A stretch of 64,000 bases of DNA, from assembly GCF_002914585.1 (NCBI RefSeq), contig NZ_PDDM01000015.1, positions 62,001-126,000 on the forward strand, given 5' to 3'. A model generated the notes under the pieces. It was not told the DNA's origin, did no database searches, and saw only the letters and a list, made by a program, of their open reading frames with translations. Of this stretch, positions 35,051-43,376 are shown in pieces. Position 1 is the stretch's first letter, and the number at the start of each line of letters is the position of its first letter. The stretch comes from Pseudanabaena sp. BC1403. Lineage in GTDB: Bacteria; Cyanobacteriota; Cyanobacteriia; Pseudanabaenales; Pseudanabaenaceae. The position numbers and the translations under genes are program-made.

Positions 35051-37825
35051 ATAGCGGAGCATTCTTTGTAGAGATTTTTGGGCTGCTTCGTTGGTGGGGT
35101 GGGGTTGTTGTCCTTGGGCTAGGGCTAGGAGTTGTTGTTGTCCTGCGGTGATTTCGGTGGGGTTTGTGCCTGTGAATTGTTCCCAGACGTTGGTGAAGTA
35201 GCCGATGCCGTTGATGTAGGCTTCGGGGATGGCGGACTGGAGGAGGGTGGGGGTGACGAGTTGGGTGTGAGTGGTGTTGGCTAGTTGTACGAGTACCCAG
35301 CCGAGGAGTTGGAGGAGGTAGGGATGGCAACGGGTGAGGGTGAGGATTTGGTCTACGATGCCTGTGTCATATTCGAGGGTGAATTCGGGATCGGGATTGA
35401 GGAGTAGTTCTCTGGCTTCGTCGGGGTTGAGGTAGGTCATCTCGATGGGCATGGCGCTAATGAAGTAGCTGCTCCAATTGGTTCCGAGTTCGTCTAGGGT
35501 TTGGACTCCAGAGAAGAGGAAACTGAGGCGCGATTGATGTTGGATCAGGCTGCGGAGTTGATCAAAGAGCCTGTTGCTAATACGTCCCTGTTCCATTGCT
35601 ATGCCGATCGCTTCAAATTCATCGATATTCAGCAGGATACGTCTGTCGCCTAGTTGGGTTAGGGCGGTGTCGAGCCAGTCTTCGAGTTGGGTGTAAGGAC
35701 TGAGGCGAAATTCTTCGCGTTTGGGTGGGGCGGGTAGGAGTACTTGTTGGCTACGGGCATCGCGGTGGATGGCACGAACGATGGTGAAGCAAAAGTCGGC
35801 TTCGCTTTGGCTGGCGGATTGGCTTTGGAGGTCGATGTATACTGGTAAAACGTCACTGGTTAGGAGGCGCGGTAAGTTGAGCAGGAAGGAGCTTTTGCCA
35901 CAGCGTCGGGGACCATGCAGGATGATGGTGGGACGGTTGCGATCGAGGATTTGGCGGACGATTTGATCGGCAAAGGCGGAACGTCCTTTAAATAGTTGCG
36001 CTCTGTCGCGGGTGAGGGGATTGCCATACTGAAAGGGGTTAAGGATTTCGCCTTGGGATTGGCGTTGGAGTTGTTCTAGTTCTTGCTGGATGATGGTTTG
36101 CCACTGTTTGATTACGTTTTGCCAGCGTGGGATGGCTTTGCTTTTGACTAGTCCTGATAGTTGGGAATTTAATGTGGATAGTTGGTCAAGGATGCGTTCT
36201 AAGCCGCGTTCGCGGAGGGCAATACTTCCTGCTTGGAGGGCTGCTTCGATATTTTGAGCATATTTTTGGAAGGTGGGGAGAAGTTCAACGTTGAGGGATT
36301 TAGTATCTAATAGTTCAGTTTGGTATAGGGAGGGAACGAGTAGGGGTAAGATGGCGTGGTTGGGTGTGGCTGTGGTGATGAGTTCGGGAATGGTGTGAAT
36401 GGCGGTTAATTGATCGGCGACTAGTTGCGGTAAGGCGTTTTTAATTGTTTGTTGGAATCCATAGAGGGGCTGCTTTTGGATGGATTGAAAAATTGGTAGG
36501 GCTTCTAGGGGATTTTGGCGAAAGGCGGCGATGAGGATGCGATCGTGATTGGGTAAGGGGAGCCAGAGTAGTTCGCTAGTAAAGGGTGGTAATCTTCTTA
36601 AAACATCGAATGGATATTGTGTAACACGATAAGAGATAGTATTTACTAGTTTGAATATAAATGATATAAATTCAGGGTAAATTCTATAATAAGCAAGTAA
36701 TGTAATTGAGAAAGATAGCAAAATCAGCCAACTTTCATCCTCAATTCTAAATGCAGTCATAATAATAGCAGCAATTATTCCCAACCATTTTTCTTTCGTA
36801 GTAGAAAGACTCACTCCAACCAGCCAACAGGCGAAGAAAAACATAGGTAATGGTAAAGCACCTATATTTGTAATGATGCTCATCATAACGCCTACAGTTA
36901 TGCCCAAAACAATACTTACAAGAATGATCCCAATGTTATAACAAACGCTGTAACAAATTCTGTACGAATAGTTCGTAATATTTTCAACGTTATATCGAAT
37001 GCTATAATTAACTTTTTGAGATATGTAACCAGATCTAAATGTAAGAAAAGAATACACAATGCTAATAATAATATTGCTGGCAATATCAATACTGGTTAAT
37101 AAAAAAGCACAAACAACAACCGAAACTGAGAGTGTAATAGTTATTCCAATAACATTTATCAATATTTTTTCTAATTCAAAGGCTTTTCGATATGAGAGTA
37201 AAATAATACCTAAGCATCCAGCAACTGATAAAGTAAATACCCAGTTTTGAGTTCCTATCCAAATACAACTGACTGAAATAAGTATAAAGACAAATATTAG
37301 TAGTCTTTTTTTTGTTAATAGTGAGCTATGTTCTAAACTTAAAAGAGTAATTGTTAGGATAAATCCTAGACTGCTAATTAATAATAATCCTATAAAATTC
37401 TGCGATACAAGTAGTGAGAATTCAATAAATTTGATCAGACCTGTAACAAAGAAAGTAGGGTTTACTAAATAAACTAGGGCAAAAATTAATGGAAAATGAA
37501 AATCTATTTGGAAAACTAGACTTATACCATAAGTTGCCAAAAGAATAATTGGGAATAATAACAAATCCAAGGATCGACCATAAAAGATAATCTCTATAAT
37601 AAGAGGCAAGCTAAAAAGGCAAACAATTTGAATGAATTGGAATAGAAAGCGCCGATTTGTCTGACTAAAAAGAATATCTTGAAAGGTTGTGTCTGGTCTG
37701 TATCCATAACGCTCCTCAACAGGACTCCATTCATTCATCCTCTCCTGCAACCGAGAAGGAAAAAACATCGCCCAATACCACAACTCCCAACTCTCCCTCA
37801 ACCACAACTTCAAAGCCTCATTCAT
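34970..37825 (-). CDS. Polytopic membrane protein with C-terminal STAND-type ATPase
   Basis: The protein has 951 residues. About ten hydrophobic helices occupy residues 55-400. A helical linker (440-600) and a P-loop NTPase follow: NPFQYGNPLTRDRAQLFKGR before Walker A GPRRCGKSS (Lys 644), and Walker B ILLNIDEFE (Asp 735, Glu 736). The C-terminal winged-helix-like end is FEVPLIERWVREKSS. STAND ATPases act as signal-triggered switches in conflict systems. The start overlaps the trypsin-STAND gene by 4 bases (ATGA). The membrane part is AT-rich and the ATPase part GC-rich, so the protein may be a recent fusion. Confidence 0.82.
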   Translation of the reverse strand: MNEALKLWLRESWELWYWAMFFPSRLQERMNEWSPVEERYGYRPDTTFQDILFSQTNRRFLFQFIQIVCLFSLPLIIEIIFYGRSLDLLLFPIILLATYGISLVFQIDFHFPLIFALVYLVNPTFFVTGLIKFIEFSLLVSQNFIGLLLISSLGFILTITLLSLEHSSLLTKKRLLIFVFILISVSCIWIGTQNWVFTLSVAGCLGIILLSYRKAFELEKILINVIGITITLSVSVVVCAFLLTSIDIASNIIISIVYSFLTFRSGYISQKVNYSIRYNVENITNYSYRICYSVCYNIGIILVSIVLGITVGVMMSIITNIGALPLPMFFFACWLVGVSLSTTKEKWLGIIAAIIMTAFRIEDESWLILLSFSITLLAYYRIYPEFISFIFKLVNTISYRVTQYPFDVLRRLPPFTSELLWLPLPNHDRILIAAFRQNPLEALPIFQSIQKQPLYGFQQTIKNALPQLVADQLTAIHTIPELITTATPNHAILPLLVPSLYQTELLDTKSLNVELLPTFQKYAQNIEAALQAGSIALRERGLERILDQLSTLNSQLSGLVKSKAIPRWQNVIKQWQTIIQQELEQLQRQSQGEILNPFQYGNPLTRDRAQLFKGRSAFADQIVRQILDRNRPTIILHGPRRCGKSSFLLNLPRLLTSDVLPVYIDLQSQSASQSEADFCFTIVRAIHRDARSQQVLLPAPPKREEFRLSPYTQLEDWLDTALTQLGDRRILLNIDEFEAIGIAMEQGRISNRLFDQLRSLIQHQSRLSFLFSGVQTLDELGTNWSSYFISAMPIEMTYLNPDEARELLLNPDPEFTLEYDTGIVDQILTLTRCHPYLLQLLGWVLVQLANTTHTQLVTPTLLQSAIPEAYINGIGYFTNVWEQFTGTNPTEITAGQQQLLALAQGQQPHPTNEAAQKSLQRMLRYHIIEKIDNQYKFEVPLIERWVREKSS

Positions 37826-39372
37826 CGCAAACCTCGCACAAACTCCGCAAACACATCACTAAACAACTCCCCATTAGTTCCCAACAACCCATACCGTTGC
37901 AACCAATCCCGCGTCACAGGAGCCGCCGCAGTTGCCGATTTCCCCGCCGCCACTCTCAAAGCATGACGTTCCAAATCAGACAGATCATAAAAAATCCCCG
38001 CCCAATGCGAATGCACCTGAAATAGAAACTCCCTTTTTACCACTTCCACATCACCATGCTGCCAAATCAACGCCGCCGCCATCTGTGTATAAAAAGGCAA
38101 CCGCCCCGCCAAATTATTAACCAAATTCAGCGTGTCCGTCCCACAACTAGAAAAGCCATCTCGCAATAACTTCTCCCATGCCTCAATCTCTAACGCCCCC
38201 AACACCGTCGTACTAAAAATATTTCCAAACGGTGAAGTTAAACCCAAATTTTTATAAATCTCACTAAGCGGATGCCGACTCGCCACCACCAGCGAAAACA
38301 AACCCGCCCCAGCCTTCGATCGCCAATCCTCACCCCAATCTTGAAACTTATCCAACCGATAACCAATACTTTCCAACTCATCCAAAATCACAATCAATCG
38401 ATAACCCTCATCTCTCAGTTCCAGCAAAGCATCCTCGACCTCATAGGGATCGATATTATCACCCCTACCCCAAGGCGCTGTCCCAACCTGTGCTTTAATA
38501 CCACGCCTCAATCCTTCCATCAGTCCATAAGGATCGTGAAACTTACTATCTTGCAAATCCAACAACACAATTAACGGCTGTTGCGAATCCTGAAAGAAAA
38601 CTTGCGGACGTTCCTTGATATAGCGCAAAAACGAACTCTTGCCACTGCGCCGCAACCCGACAATATTCACACATTGCGCCGAAATTGCCCCAATCCGATT
38701 TTTGACATCGGCGATCGCACTCACCCGACCATAAAAGCGATCGGGCGACACAGGCGCACCATACTGAAACGGATTCACATCACCCCGTTGCTGCTGGTGA
38801 AACTGACGATTTTGAGTCGCAAGATCGGGAAAATACTCAAACACTGTCGCGATCGGAATTCCACCACCACCCAAGGGCAAACTGCGATCTTCCGTATATT
38901 TAACAACACCACAAACCTTACCCGTAGCAGGATTGAGCAACGGCGCACCACTTAACCCCGAGCGAACCCTGCCATCACTAAACTTAATCTTCGGCGGCAC
39001 ATCACCATTCAGCCCATCGTATCGCAACGTTACAGGCGCACCATTCGGGTCAATATCAGGATAGCCATAGGCAAAAAGATCGTCAAAAGCAGCGATCGCC
39101 CCATCCAACTCCACACAGGCTAAAGCTTCCAACGTCTCAAATTGCAACAGAGCCAGATCGACAGGATCGGGAAAAGACTGTAAAACCTTCGCCACTGCAA
39201 AATCCTCTTGGTTTTGCCATCTCACCTTAATCGGGCGATCGCCAGCATTTTTAACCACATGATGACAGGTCAAAATCAGCCCCGCCGCCACAAAGAAACC
39301 TGTACCGTGAGTATTATCAATACTTAGCTTCACCGTACAAGTATGGAGATTGTCAGGACTGAGACTAGCCAA
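37822..39372 (-). CDS. Trypsin-like protease fused to STAND-type ATPase
   Basis: The protein has 516 residues and no signal peptide, so it is cytoplasmic. Residues 10-180 are a trypsin-like domain with an intact triad: His 38 (TCHHVV), Asp 72 (PVDLALL) and Ser 141 (GLSGAP). A linker leads to NPFQYGAPVSPDRFYGR, Walker A GLRRSGKSS (Lys 245) and Walker B VILDELES (Asp 331, Glu 332), then a winged-helix-like end. The NPFQYG lead-in is shared with the next gene. Such protease-NTPase fusions are proposed effectors of NTP-dependent conflict systems in which substrate recognition triggers proteolysis. It overlaps the Trypco1-like gene by 8 bases. Confidence 0.88.
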   Translation of the reverse strand: MASLSPDNLHTCTVKLSIDNTHGTGFFVAAGLILTCHHVVKNAGDRPIKVRWQNQEDFAVAKVLQSFPDPVDLALLQFETLEALACVELDGAIAAFDDLFAYGYPDIDPNGAPVTLRYDGLNGDVPPKIKFSDGRVRSGLSGAPLLNPATGKVCGVVKYTEDRSLPLGGGGIPIATVFEYFPDLATQNRQFHQQQRGDVNPFQYGAPVSPDRFYGRVSAIADVKNRIGAISAQCVNIVGLRRSGKSSFLRYIKERPQVFFQDSQQPLIVLLDLQDSKFHDPYGLMEGLRRGIKAQVGTAPWGRGDNIDPYEVEDALLELRDEGYRLIVILDELESIGYRLDKFQDWGEDWRSKAGAGLFSLVVASRHPLSEIYKNLGLTSPFGNIFSTTVLGALEIEAWEKLLRDGFSSCGTDTLNLVNNLAGRLPFYTQMAAALIWQHGDVEVVKREFLFQVHSHWAGIFYDLSDLERHALRVAAGKSATAAAPVTRDWLQRYGLLGTNGELFSDVFAEFVRGLR

Positions 39373-39700
39373 TGGTCTTCACCGTCCCTATTTCCTTTGT
39401 CCATTCTAGCGAAATTTCTAGATTTGCCTTACCACTACCTTTGACCAGTACGGCTGTTAACTGACCCGCCTCAACCGCTAACTCCATACCAAACTTCACC
39501 GTCGCCTTATTAGGTTTAGCACGATTAATCGGCTCAGCGATCGCTTGGACAATTCCGCCGAGCGCATCAGTTACCGCTTTAAACTTACTGGCTTCATTTG
39601 CCACATCCTCACGCCCAGTTTGTGTTACCTCAACCAGAATCGTAGTTCCATCTTCCAGTTGTACAGGGATATTTTGAGTGCGAGTTTCTGAGTCATTCAT
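39365..39700 (-). CDS. Trypco1-like (trypsin-co-occurring) protein
   Basis: The protein has 111 residues. It reads as a small beta-rich domain: IPVQLEDGTTILVEVTQ, then FKAVTDALGGIVQAIAEPI, then ATVKFGMELAVEAGQLTAVLVKGSGKANLEISLEW. This matches the CU044_2847/Trypco1 family known to occur beside trypsin-like conflict-system proteases. Here too it is the first gene of the operon and overlaps the trypsin-STAND gene. It might be a substrate, regulator or sensor of the protease. No promoter is identified in the 166-base divergent gap. Confidence 0.78.
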   Translation of the reverse strand: MNDSETRTQNIPVQLEDGTTILVEVTQTGREDVANEASKFKAVTDALGGIVQAIAEPINRAKPNKATVKFGMELAVEAGQLTAVLVKGSGKANLEISLEWTKEIGTVKTIG

Positions 39701-39866: not shown

Positions 39867-40613
39867 ATGGGAATAATGAAGGCTAAGGTTGCGACAAAAC
39901 TGAAAGTGCGCCCAGTGGATTCAGCACAACTCACAAAACCTAACGAAACGATAGATGTCCCCGTTGGTAAAACCTATGGATTTGATAAATTTGAACCTGC
40001 TGACAATGGACATGTCAAAGTAATTTTAGCGGCTGGTAGTGGAACTTACTTCGTTTTTCCACCACATTGGGAAGGACTAGTACCTGACGCTCCTCAAATT
40101 GTCAGTAAAAAACAAGCTGAATCATTCTTTGGCAGACAAATTACAGATGCTCAACTTCAAGATTTGAACTCCTGTTTAGTTCGCTACAAGATTACTACCG
40201 CGCCTAGATTGCGGCATTTTCTTAGTCAAATTGCCCACGAGTCTGGTGGCTTGCAATATACACAAGAATTTGCCGATGGTAAGGATTATGAAGGTCGCCA
40301 AGATTTGGGGAATGTGAATCCAGGTGACGGACCAAAATATAAAGGGGCTGGAGTGATTCAGCTTACAGGGCGGGCTAATTATCAGGCTTTTAGTAAGGCG
40401 ATCGCTGATCCTAAAGTGATGGATGGAGTCGCCTATGTTGCATCAAAATATCCATTTACCAGTGCTGGGTTTTGGTGGTCTAACAACAATATGAATGCCC
40501 TATGCGATCGCGGTGCAAGTGTCGAAGAAGTGACTTTACGTGTGAATGGTGGCTATAACGGTCTAGACGATCGCAAATATTACTTTGACAAAGCTCGCGG
40601 TATTTTTGCCTAA
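39867..40613 (+). CDS. GH19 chitinase/endolysin-like protein
   Basis: The protein has 248 residues. The N-terminal 75 residues look like an SH3-type domain ([11 protein letters not shown] ... [11 protein letters not shown]). Residues 90-248 are a family 19 lysozyme/chitinase fold: [17 protein letters not shown] with the catalytic Glu in HESGG, then [18 protein letters not shown] and the [20 protein letters not shown] ending typical of phage-type GH19 endolysins. No signal peptide is visible, as in endolysins that exit by other means. It diverges from the conflict operon. A peptidoglycan-hydrolase role is likely; a prophage origin is possible but no other phage gene is near. Confidence 0.83.
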
Positions 40614-40658
40614 CAGCAAAGGAAAAGACAGTGCTAAGCACTGTCTTTTCCTTTGCTG
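40614..40658 (+). terminator. 22-bp hairpin after the GH19 gene
   Basis: CAGCAAAGGAAAAGACAGTG and its complement pair around a single A, one base after the stop. Another short hairpin (40668-40710) resembles a partial ATACCAA-type repeat. Confidence 0.65.
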
Positions 40659-40764
40659 GATTTGATTTTTAATGCACAAAAGGGTCGGCACACTTTTGTG
40701 CATTGGGGTTTAGACATCAAAAAAAATAACAACTACAACAATTTGCGACCAAACAAACTACTAT

Positions 40765-40805
40765 AAATTTTTGAAACTGTTGCAAAGCAACAGTTTCAAA
40801 AATTT
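40765..40805. other. 19-bp hairpin upstream of the Cache/channel operon
   Basis: AAATTTTTGAAACTGTTGC, loop AAA and its perfect complement. It lies 74 bases before the Cache gene start and may be a repeat or a leader structure. Confidence 0.5.
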
Positions 40806-40878
40806 ATTAATTATGGCTTGAGCACAATTCGCTTTAAGAAATGGAATCAGCCTCCTGTAGATTAACTGCAAGCAAAAT

Positions 40879-42039
40879 ATGAATATTAAGTGGAAGTCTC
40901 AACTGTTGTTGTTTATGGTGGCTATAACCACTTCGATCGTGTCGGCATATTCGGGGTTTCAGGCTAACAATGCCATGATCGAAAGTGCGAAGAAACGAGA
41001 ACTGAATGTTACATCCACATTGATCCAGAGCAACATCGCCGAACAGATTAACAAAGCCTCCGCCCGCGCTTCATTAGTGTCTTCATTGCCATCGATCAAG
41101 CAAGCTTTTCGGGCAAAAAACCGCGAAGAGATCGCAAATCGTCTATTGCCAGCCATGATTGTCCAACGCGATCAGTTTGGAATCAGAGAGGGGCAGTTTA
41201 TCTTGCCACCTGCGATCTCTTTCTTGCGTATCTATGCTCTTAAGGATGGACATGGTGAAGATCTGAGTGGATTTCGTCAGATGCTACTGGTAGCTAATCG
41301 CACTGGGGAACCTCAACGCGGTATGGAAATCGGTCGGCGCGGGCTTAGCATTCGCGCAGTCTATCCAGTCAAAGATGATGAGGGGTTGATCGGTAGCTTT
41401 GAAATAGGCTTAAGTTTCTCATCGGTGCTCTCACAAACTAAGACAAATACAGGCTTTGATGTGGGTGTGTTCATCGACGATAAATTGATGACTGAGGTCG
41501 CCAAATTGCAGCCTCGTCCAGATAGTGAGCGCATCATTGGTGGATACCAAGCCGTCGAAGTCACAGACTGGGCGGCTCTCAAGCCACTACTATCTCCCGC
41601 AGTCTTTGCCAAGGCGCGTGATGTTTCTGTTGAACTTCTCACCGTCAATGGCAATGACTACGGACTGGTCTTAGTGCCCGTGCTGGACTACAAGGGTGAA
41701 CGTATCGGTGCGGTAGTGGCAGTTCGAGACTTTAGTGAATTCCAGAATCAGCAAAGGTGGGCACTCACAGGCACAGTTGCAATGGCAGGATTACAGATAG
41801 TGTTGCTGACTGGTGCTTTGTTAATCGTGGTTAATGCCATGTTGCTCAAGCCCTTTGCCGCGATCGCAAGTGCCAGCAACGAACTAGCCGATGGAAATCC
41901 AGCCCCTGATCTCGAAGATTTGGCAAACCGCCGCGATGAGATTGGCGGCATGGCGCGATCGCTACAAACTCTTGTTGTCTCTAAAGGGAATGGAAAGGGC
42001 AATACTAAAGATGCTGTGAAGGAGTCAAAAAATGCGTAG
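40879..42039 (+). CDS. Cache-domain membrane receptor ending in HAMP
   Basis: The protein has 386 residues. A first membrane helix (about 8-26) precedes a periplasmic region of some 260 residues that resembles the double-Cache ligand-binding folds of chemoreceptors (for example IRAVYPVKDDEGLIGSFEIGLSF and GLVLVPVLDYKGERIGAVVAVRD). A second helix (about 297-322) and HAMP (about 323-370: LLKPFAAIASASNELADGN ... RRDEIGGMARSLQTL) follow. The protein then stops after a short Lys/Gly/Asn tail: no methyl-accepting, kinase or cyclase domain exists. The last 8 bases overlap the channel gene, so the two are translated together and the channel is the likely output. Confidence 0.87.
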   Translation: MNIKWKSQLLLFMVAITTSIVSAYSGFQANNAMIESAKKRELNVTSTLIQSNIAEQINKASARASLVSSLPSIKQAFRAKNREEIANRLLPAMIVQRDQFGIREGQFILPPAISFLRIYALKDGHGEDLSGFRQMLLVANRTGEPQRGMEIGRRGLSIRAVYPVKDDEGLIGSFEIGLSFSSVLSQTKTNTGFDVGVFIDDKLMTEVAKLQPRPDSERIIGGYQAVEVTDWAALKPLLSPAVFAKARDVSVELLTVNGNDYGLVLVPVLDYKGERIGAVVAVRDFSEFQNQQRWALTGTVAMAGLQIVLLTGALLIVVNAMLLKPFAAIASASNELADGNPAPDLEDLANRRDEIGGMARSLQTLVVSKGNGKGNTKDAVKESKNA

Positions 42040-43330
42040 ACCATGGAAATTTTCGCTATCCCACATCCTCACCATTTTTTTATTGTGCATTTCCTTCACT
42101 TTTGCTACCTATATTGGGGCAGGAGCAAACATCGCAACGACCGCTATCTTTGCGCAATCTAATCCTGAAGCGACAAATAATCCCACAACACCTGCACCTA
42201 ATCAGTCAGTGGCAAACCCCACAGTTACTGATGCAGCAAAGCCTCCAGCAAACAAAGATGGTGCTGCTAATCCAACAAAGCCGCCAGTTAAAGATATCGC
42301 CAAAAAAACTACTACACCAGACGAAAACCCACTGGGGATGAATAATCTTGTTCCTTTTCCTTCTAATGTGGCTCTCCCTATAAATGTAGGTGTAGCCTTA
42401 TTTGTAAATAACATCAGCAAAATCAGCGAAGCTAGTAATACCTTTGAGAGTCAGTTTGATTTAAGGTACAACTGGAAAGATCCTCGCTTAGCCTTCGATA
42501 CTGGCGAGATGGGAACTAATCGTTTGGAGTTTGGACAAGAAGCTGCTGTAGCAAAATTAGCCACCATCTGGAACCCGCAGATTAAAATCACTAACATCAT
42601 CGAGAAAGATGCTCAAATCGTTCCAGGCTTATTCATTCATTATGATGGTGAAGTAGAGCTCATCCAGCGTGTCAAGGCGACCTTTGAGACCAAATTAAAT
42701 TTAGATGCTTTCCCCTTTGACACCCAGTCTCTGCTAGTAGCCATGTTGTCATCTAAATACAATTCTAATCAGATTGCAATGACTCAGGATCAGAATGATC
42801 TGAACGAATCAGGACTCGATCCAGACCTCAAAGTTAATGGATGGAAGCCACAGGGAATATCCTTTAAAATGACACAGCTACGCGCTTGGAATGGAGCATT
42901 TCTCCGTCAGATTGAAGCTCGCGTAGGTATGAAACGTATCCCGAATGCGATTCTAGGCTCGATCTTCACACCATTCTTCTTGACTTTAATCGTACCGACG
43001 ATCTTTACATTCTTCGCAAATGTAGACTTAGCGCCCCGTCTAGTCGCATGGAGTGGCTCAATCTTGGCATTAGTGGCGCTTACCTTCACATTTTCAGTGC
43101 GATACCCTTGGCTCGGCAGCAACAGCCTCGTATCGCAGATATTCACCGCAGGACATGCCTTTCAGCTTGTCTCCGTACTTTTATCGATAACACTGTTTAA
43201 CCCAGATGTAGCTAAAAAGATGGATCGGTTCATAGTTGCCGAACTCGTCAGCTATCTACGGTGGCTTGTTCCTGTCGGCTTCTTGGGGGTCTTGATCACT
43301 AAGTCTCTACTCACAGCTTTCGACTGGTAA
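42032..43330 (+). CDS. Pentameric ligand-gated ion channel homologue
   Basis: The protein has 432 residues. A signal peptide (about 1-40) and a Pro/Ala/Lys-rich linker (45-110) precede a ligand-binding domain bearing Cys-loop-receptor hallmarks: YNWKDPRL (146-153), WNPQI (Trp 180) and the loop core LDAFPFDTQ (Pro 228). Four C-terminal helices follow (about 300-432), the second being the likely pore (LVAWSGSILALVALTF). Prokaryotic relatives such as GLIC are proton-gated; this ligand is unknown. The two Cys of eukaryotic receptors are absent, as in bacterial channels. It overlaps the Cache receptor gene by 8 bases. Confidence 0.88.
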   Translation: MRRPWKFSLSHILTIFLLCISFTFATYIGAGANIATTAIFAQSNPEATNNPTTPAPNQSVANPTVTDAAKPPANKDGAANPTKPPVKDIAKKTTTPDENPLGMNNLVPFPSNVALPINVGVALFVNNISKISEASNTFESQFDLRYNWKDPRLAFDTGEMGTNRLEFGQEAAVAKLATIWNPQIKITNIIEKDAQIVPGLFIHYDGEVELIQRVKATFETKLNLDAFPFDTQSLLVAMLSSKYNSNQIAMTQDQNDLNESGLDPDLKVNGWKPQGISFKMTQLRAWNGAFLRQIEARVGMKRIPNAILGSIFTPFFLTLIVPTIFTFFANVDLAPRLVAWSGSILALVALTFTFSVRYPWLGSNSLVSQIFTAGHAFQLVSVLLSITLFNPDVAKKMDRFIVAELVSYLRWLVPVGFLGVLITKSLLTAFDW

Positions 43331-43346
43331 TGCGATCGCCTAGTCT

Positions 43347-43376
43347 AAAAAAAGCGGCGCTTCGCGCCGCTTTTTT
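43347..43376. terminator. Bidirectional terminator between channel and apt genes
   Basis: A-run, GCGGCGC, TTC, GCGCCGC, T-run. It is symmetric for both converging transcripts. Confidence 0.85.

Follow-up and report, generated by a model that had tools for sequence, protein, structure and literature searches.

A double-Cache receptor gene joined to a pentameric ligand-gated channel gene in Pseudanabaena: a candidate two-component sensor-channel

The closest described relative of the locus treated here is the ART-LGIC operon of Rhodopseudomonas (Tasneem et al., Genome Biol 2005, PMC549065), in which the gene of a ligand-gated ion channel (LGIC) was assigned, in one bacterium, to the same predicted operon as a stand-alone Cache gene. 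That report also mentions fusions of Cache/MCP-N and of PBP-I to LGIC elsewhere and proposes cooperation of sensor and channel as well as a chemotactic role. A comparable arrangement lies in a stretch of 64,000 nucleotides from Pseudanabaena sp. BC1403 (contig NZ_PDDM01000015.1, positions 62,001 to 126,000; the whole stretch is called the window), where the gene of a double-Cache receptor overlaps that of a pentameric ligand-gated ion channel (pLGIC). Both loci combine a stand-alone Cache protein lacking an output domain with a prokaryotic LGIC. They differ in that the Rhodopseudomonas case occupies two sentences, which, as far as the accessible text goes, describe neither the family nor the membrane anchors, the clade or the co-inheritance; its pair probably belongs, as a putative member, to the same family as the Hyphomicrobiales pairs reported below. 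The original prediction for this DNA had considered a split system of this kind undescribed, but as an idea a split Cache-LGIC system is prior art. What appears to be new is a defined clade, a seemingly obligatory and widespread pairing, conservation across phyla, congruent inheritance and a dispensable HAMP.

Other known systems share single aspects of this design. Cache/MCP-N-LGIC fusions of Methanosarcina, Cytophaga and Microbulbifer (Tasneem et al. 2005) likewise unite a Cache sensor and a pLGIC, though in one chain, whereas the sensor in the window is a separate protein with two transmembrane (TM) helices of its own. PBP-I-LGIC fusions also couple an extra periplasmic sensor to a pLGIC, but with a periplasmic binding protein fold, in a single fused chain and on another channel branch. 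GLIC and DeCLIC share with the window channel the fold, the four TM helices and the Pro-loop motif, GLIC being nearest by sequence and structure; identity is only about 22%, however, and GLIC-like loci are without a Cache gene. DeCLIC, which had been cited as a channel with Cache-like N-terminal domains, was rejected as a precedent, as its N-terminal lobes resemble calcium-binding domains (Tk-SP, collagenase) and not Cache (PMC12664993). The alpha2delta protein of animal voltage-gated calcium channels is a separate Cache-bearing auxiliary subunit acting on an ion channel (PMC9901441); it contains dCache_1 and other domains and serves an unrelated channel, and the comparison is an analogy, with no homology claimed. 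Neither Cache nor operons are mentioned by Jaiteh et al. (2016). A search of the open-access literature, with subscription papers outside its reach, found no later treatment of the pair. To our knowledge, little is established about what prokaryotic pLGICs do for the cells that make them, and most proposals for their natural ligands are guesswork. A dedicated sensor partner would provide a direct handle on this question, since a ligand could be sought for the soluble Cache domain and then applied to the channel.

The pair and the signals at its junction are arranged in the window as follows:

40879..42039, + strand: dCache_3 receptor gene, 386 amino acids (open reading frame and profile matches)
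42032..43330, + strand: pLGIC gene, 432 amino acids (open reading frame and profile matches)
42032..42039, + strand: start/stop overlap of the Cache and channel genes, 8 bp (ATG at 42032, TAG ending at 42039)
42019..42024, + strand: Shine-Dalgarno-like site (AAGGAG), about 7 nt upstream of the start codon of the channel and still within the 3' end of the Cache gene

The main finding is that across the phyla Cyanobacteriota and Pseudomonadota the two genes have been passed on, and lost, together. The intact pairs number 28, namely nine of a type A and five of a type B in Pseudanabaena, two in metagenome-assembled genomes (MAGs), ten in the Rhizobium order and two in a wider sample of Pseudomonadota (L176 and L177), the pseudomonadotal pairs being mostly from Hyphomicrobiales. 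A scan of a genome collection retrieved Rhizobium sp. FKY42, whose channel is 28% identical and whose Cache gene lies 3 bp upstream; a search for the Rhizobium channel on plasmids gave no match. Among 297 Rhizobium-order genomes, all nine other strong channel matches (E < 1e-60) have the Cache gene directly upstream, against none of the 11 weaker matches fetched, and no Cache gene was seen beside weaker matches in the wider Pseudomonadota sample either. Unpaired means here that no open reading frame in the fetched flanks (mostly 5-8 kb) matched the profile of this Cache family, unrelated Cache families not having been searched systematically. Most alphaproteobacterial pairs overlap by 1-4 bp. 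The two MAGs came from a search of the phylum and belong to another class of it, a placement made uncertain by their contamination of 7-9%. Gene order is Cache then channel in G177 and inverted in G185, whose contig starts at the channel, so that a further upstream gene is possible. No third conserved gene was found at the pair loci, where flanking genes differ between lineages; together with the inverted order in one MAG, this indicates that only the two genes are conserved.

Every Pseudanabaena genome with this channel type also carries the Cache gene or its remains; the pLGICs of one genome (G019) are limited to two of another, weakly matching kind. Types A and B are paralogous, with about 42% identity between their Cache proteins and 41-43% between their channels. 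Nine genomes, that of the window included, hold an intact type A and five an intact type B; among these five, type A is likewise intact in two and damaged in one (G002). Damaged type A loci are three in number: an insertion of about 1 kb splits the Cache gene of G002 and leaves the channel frame open, and joint deletions in G025 and G009 have left the start of the Cache gene joined to the end of the channel gene. At most A loci, and at two or more of the B loci, the overlap keeps the 8-bp register. Measured against the window sequences within the genus, dN/dS is 0.05-0.12 for both genes, which are thus under purifying selection. The conserved C-terminal E-S-x-N-A of A-type Cache proteins is probably a by-product of the ribosome-binding site and no protein motif, because the AAGGAG site sits in the same DNA.

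The relationship between the partners was analyzed with a tree of 69 pLGICs (26 paired and 43 unpaired, near-identical rows thinned). All paired channels fall on one side of a single branch, which has 100/99 support and recurs in 200 of 200 bootstrap trees, and the pairing requires one change on this tree, compared to 21 with shuffled labels. A Cache gene adjoins every channel of this clade, mostly with start/stop overlap, and no tested channel outside it; the tree rejects a chance absence of Cache beside the other channels. The main groups recur in the Cache tree, with a small shift in the position of one distant row (L139), and the pairwise distances of Cache proteins and channels correlate with r 0.86 among 16 representatives, a value reached in none of 5000 permutations. 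Shared species history feeds this correlation, which therefore speaks for co-inheritance and not, by itself, for contact.

The Cache protein of the window has this layout:

residues ~9-27: first TM helix (TM1)
residues 39-287: periplasmic double Cache
residues ~295-320: second TM helix (TM2)
residues 321-365: HAMP-like segment, followed by a variable tail of 20 residues

The dCache_3 profile (PF14827) matches residues 39-287 with E 2.9e-27, between the two TM helices, and the profile search matched no domain past residue 365, which bears out the predicted double-Cache sensor without signalling domain. Membrane dCache receptors usually carry a C-terminal output domain. In none of the 28 pairs was a kinase, cyclase, MCP or GGDEF domain found, the Cache protein stopping after HAMP or TM2. 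The predicted HAMP holds as a HAMP-like segment and fails at the profile cutoff (PF00672, E 2.9e-4, 21.6 vs 25 bits). HAMP-like sequence is visible in the Pseudanabaena A-type proteins; among the partners scanned, the Pfam HAMP profile finds the type of the window, weakly G177 and no others, and four partners (L141, L142, L143 and L144) end at most ~15 residues past TM2 with no HAMP. Basic residues directly follow TM2 in several partners. Over 15 diverse partners, R117, D128, R133, G148, E150, G155, G172, E175 and G177 of the distal Cache do not vary, and S130, N140, Q146 and R159 hardly vary. Because these residues are kept, the distal Cache may well retain a ligand pocket, with which the sequences are consistent. 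A single-chain model of modest quality (pLDDT 61) gave a fold search dominated by dCache chemoreceptor structures.

The channel is laid out as follows:

N-terminus: signal peptide
residues ~50-105: variable Pro/Thr/Asn-rich tail
residues 110-302: ligand-binding domain (LBD)
residues 303-430: M1-M4

Its membership of the neurotransmitter-gated channel family is confirmed by Neur_chan_LBD, above cutoff with E 2.5e-21 (76.5 vs 26 bits); the NCBIfam LGIC_1 match (E 9.3e-25) is below that model's own cutoff, and the Neur_chan_memb profile was not reached. GLIC is the best PDB relative by sequence comparison, and even a poor single-chain model (pLDDT 45) still matches GLIC/DeCLIC. The Cys-loop hallmarks W148-K-D-P-R-L153, W180-N-P182 and F227-P-F-D230 stand where they had been predicted; W148, P151, W180, P182 and F227-D230 are invariant in 15 Pseudanabaena homologues, and the Pro-loop F227-D230, W148 and the conserved Arg before M1 (R302) throughout the channel clade. 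Four C-terminal helices, also predicted, were found by hydropathy and in the model (309-328, 334-357, 366-387 and 391-429). Within Pseudanabaena, the tail that links the signal peptide to the LBD differs widely in length and is probably disordered. The clade has characteristic residues of its own, namely W286 (loop C region), A122, A346 and T353 in M2, G374 in M3 and, on the cytoplasmic side of M4, E404, a position that is mostly R/K in other channels. As positions -1'/-2' of M2 lack an acidic residue, the sequence allows no prediction of ion selectivity.

A functional partnership of the two proteins is well supported by these sequence comparisons. Their likeliest arrangement, which we favour with some reserve, would be a two-component sensor-channel in which the Cache protein serves the channel as auxiliary sensor subunit and gates or tunes it. 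The Cache protein would bind a small periplasmic solute through its membrane-distal pocket (R117, D128, S130, R133, N140, Q146, G148, E150, G155, R159), and the resulting change would be passed to the LBD of the channel and/or to lipid-facing helices (channel M4 against Cache TM1/TM2), so that the pore is opened, closed or tuned; the pore would then be the missing output domain of the receptor. M4 of pLGICs faces the lipid. Because of this, and because several partners are basic after TM2, an M4-TM2 contact may be guessed. HAMP as a direct contact to the channel, part of the original prediction, is needless: as four partners stop just past TM2 and in most others no HAMP can be recognised, it is not essential and cannot provide the general mechanism, and it was rejected in this role. 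Where kept, it would be a remnant or modulator and no coupling device, the coupling probably running through periplasmic and membrane parts. Of the predicted split sensor-channel, the pairing itself stands, on 28 intact pairs, the 100/99 clade, congruent trees and joint loss, while the details on HAMP, DeCLIC and novelty do not. Neither of the two outcomes named beforehand as refuting it came about, the Cache gene adjoining every channel of the clade and the channel matching the family profile. More tentatively, and slightly on the doubtful side, the pair might constitute an ancient obligatory hetero-oligomeric receptor in which a separate double-Cache subunit reads the gating ligand and a pore stands in place of cytoplasmic output; that subunit would be the first auxiliary sensor among prokaryotic pLGICs. 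If true, this would be a bacterial parallel to the Cache-bearing auxiliary subunits of animal ion channels, and the output of the sensor would be ion flux instead of phosphorylation or methylation.

Several points weigh against a sensor-channel complex. Cache receptors normally form dimers, a number of subunits that does not readily fit a pentameric channel; the channel of G002 may persist, at least briefly, without an intact Cache protein; the single-chain models (pLDDT 61 for Cache, 45 for the channel) are too poor for modelling an interface; and operon linkage can arise from shared function without contact. The main rival builds on this last point and takes the two proteins to cooperate in one pathway without a complex, the Cache protein concentrating, presenting or sensing the same ligand or helping to fold, insert or place a channel that gates on its own LBD as GLIC does. 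The channel indeed keeps a full LBD, usual invariant residues included; co-expression and assembly would explain the start/stop overlap equally well as gating would; and concentration or preliminary sensing was suggested by Tasneem et al. (PMC549065). We nevertheless regard this as rather unlikely, given that the conserved pocket residues would be needless for a pure chaperone and that two anchors hold the Cache protein in the membrane with the channel, not free in the periplasm.

Lower still is the probability that the truncated receptor signals elsewhere, using HAMP to form dimers with a chemoreceptor or a kinase, and that the operon has the channel as a second, independent output. Plausible partners exist, since genus relatives match its second Cache and HAMP region in reading frames of ~870 residues, and the HAMP-like segment of A-type proteins (and, weakly, of G177) could serve such dimers; but HAMP is absent from L141, L142, L143 and L144 and unrecognisable in most others, and the channel is the sole conserved neighbour at the loci. 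That a decayed receptor gene merely happens to precede a channel gene would agree with the lack of an output domain and with the damaged copies, yet such hitch-hiking has a negligible chance, being refuted by the 28 intact pairs from two phyla, the monophyly of the channels, the strength of purifying selection, the differing flanks and the joint losses.

Two structures border the pair in the window:

40614..40658, + strand: hairpin with a 20-bp stem between the upstream gene and the pair
43346..43376, strand unassigned: GC-rich palindrome with A/T runs 3' of the channel gene, read from the sequence

The hairpin likely separates transcription units and the palindrome is likely a bidirectional terminator facing a convergent apt-like gene, which together suggest a two-gene unit. 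A perfect 20-bp inverted repeat at 40763-40807, about 75 bp 5' of the Cache start, is perhaps a regulatory or terminator hairpin; as a repeated element it was rejected, with a single exact copy in the genome. Just 5' of the pair lies a GH19-like gene (39867-40613; chitinase/lysozyme-type, weak match), which is upstream in G008 too. Farther off, at 37822-39700, two genes overlap, one for a trypsin-like protease that includes an ATPase-like region and one for Trypco1 (trypsin-co-occurring domain). Trypsin-like protease/Trypco1 pairs have been discussed as parts of conflict systems.

Further pLGIC genes were noted during the survey. A PBP-I domain fused to a pLGIC (~750-780 residues) is encoded just 5' of the pair in most type A loci (L032-L035, L037, L038, L040-L042) and on a separate contig in the genome of the window (G000:C2:315388-317673) and in G008; present in most of 26 Pseudanabaena genomes, it is spread more widely than the Cache-channel pair. 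The two weak pLGIC genes of G019 (L043 6364-12668) stand in tandem directly after genes for CheW, hybrid CheA and CheB, on the same strand and 3 bp past CheB, which fits a chemosensory role for some bacterial pLGICs. A CheB-CheR-PAS-histidine kinase fusion adjoins the pair of the G177 MAG on the opposite strand (L101 3854-7195). In three genomes of the cyanobacterial genus g47 (L105, L106, L107), a pLGIC gene is convergent with that of a Tll0287-like heme-sensor protein (CxxCH), which ends in a HAMP-like segment with no output domain and makes a second sensor-channel pairing possible.
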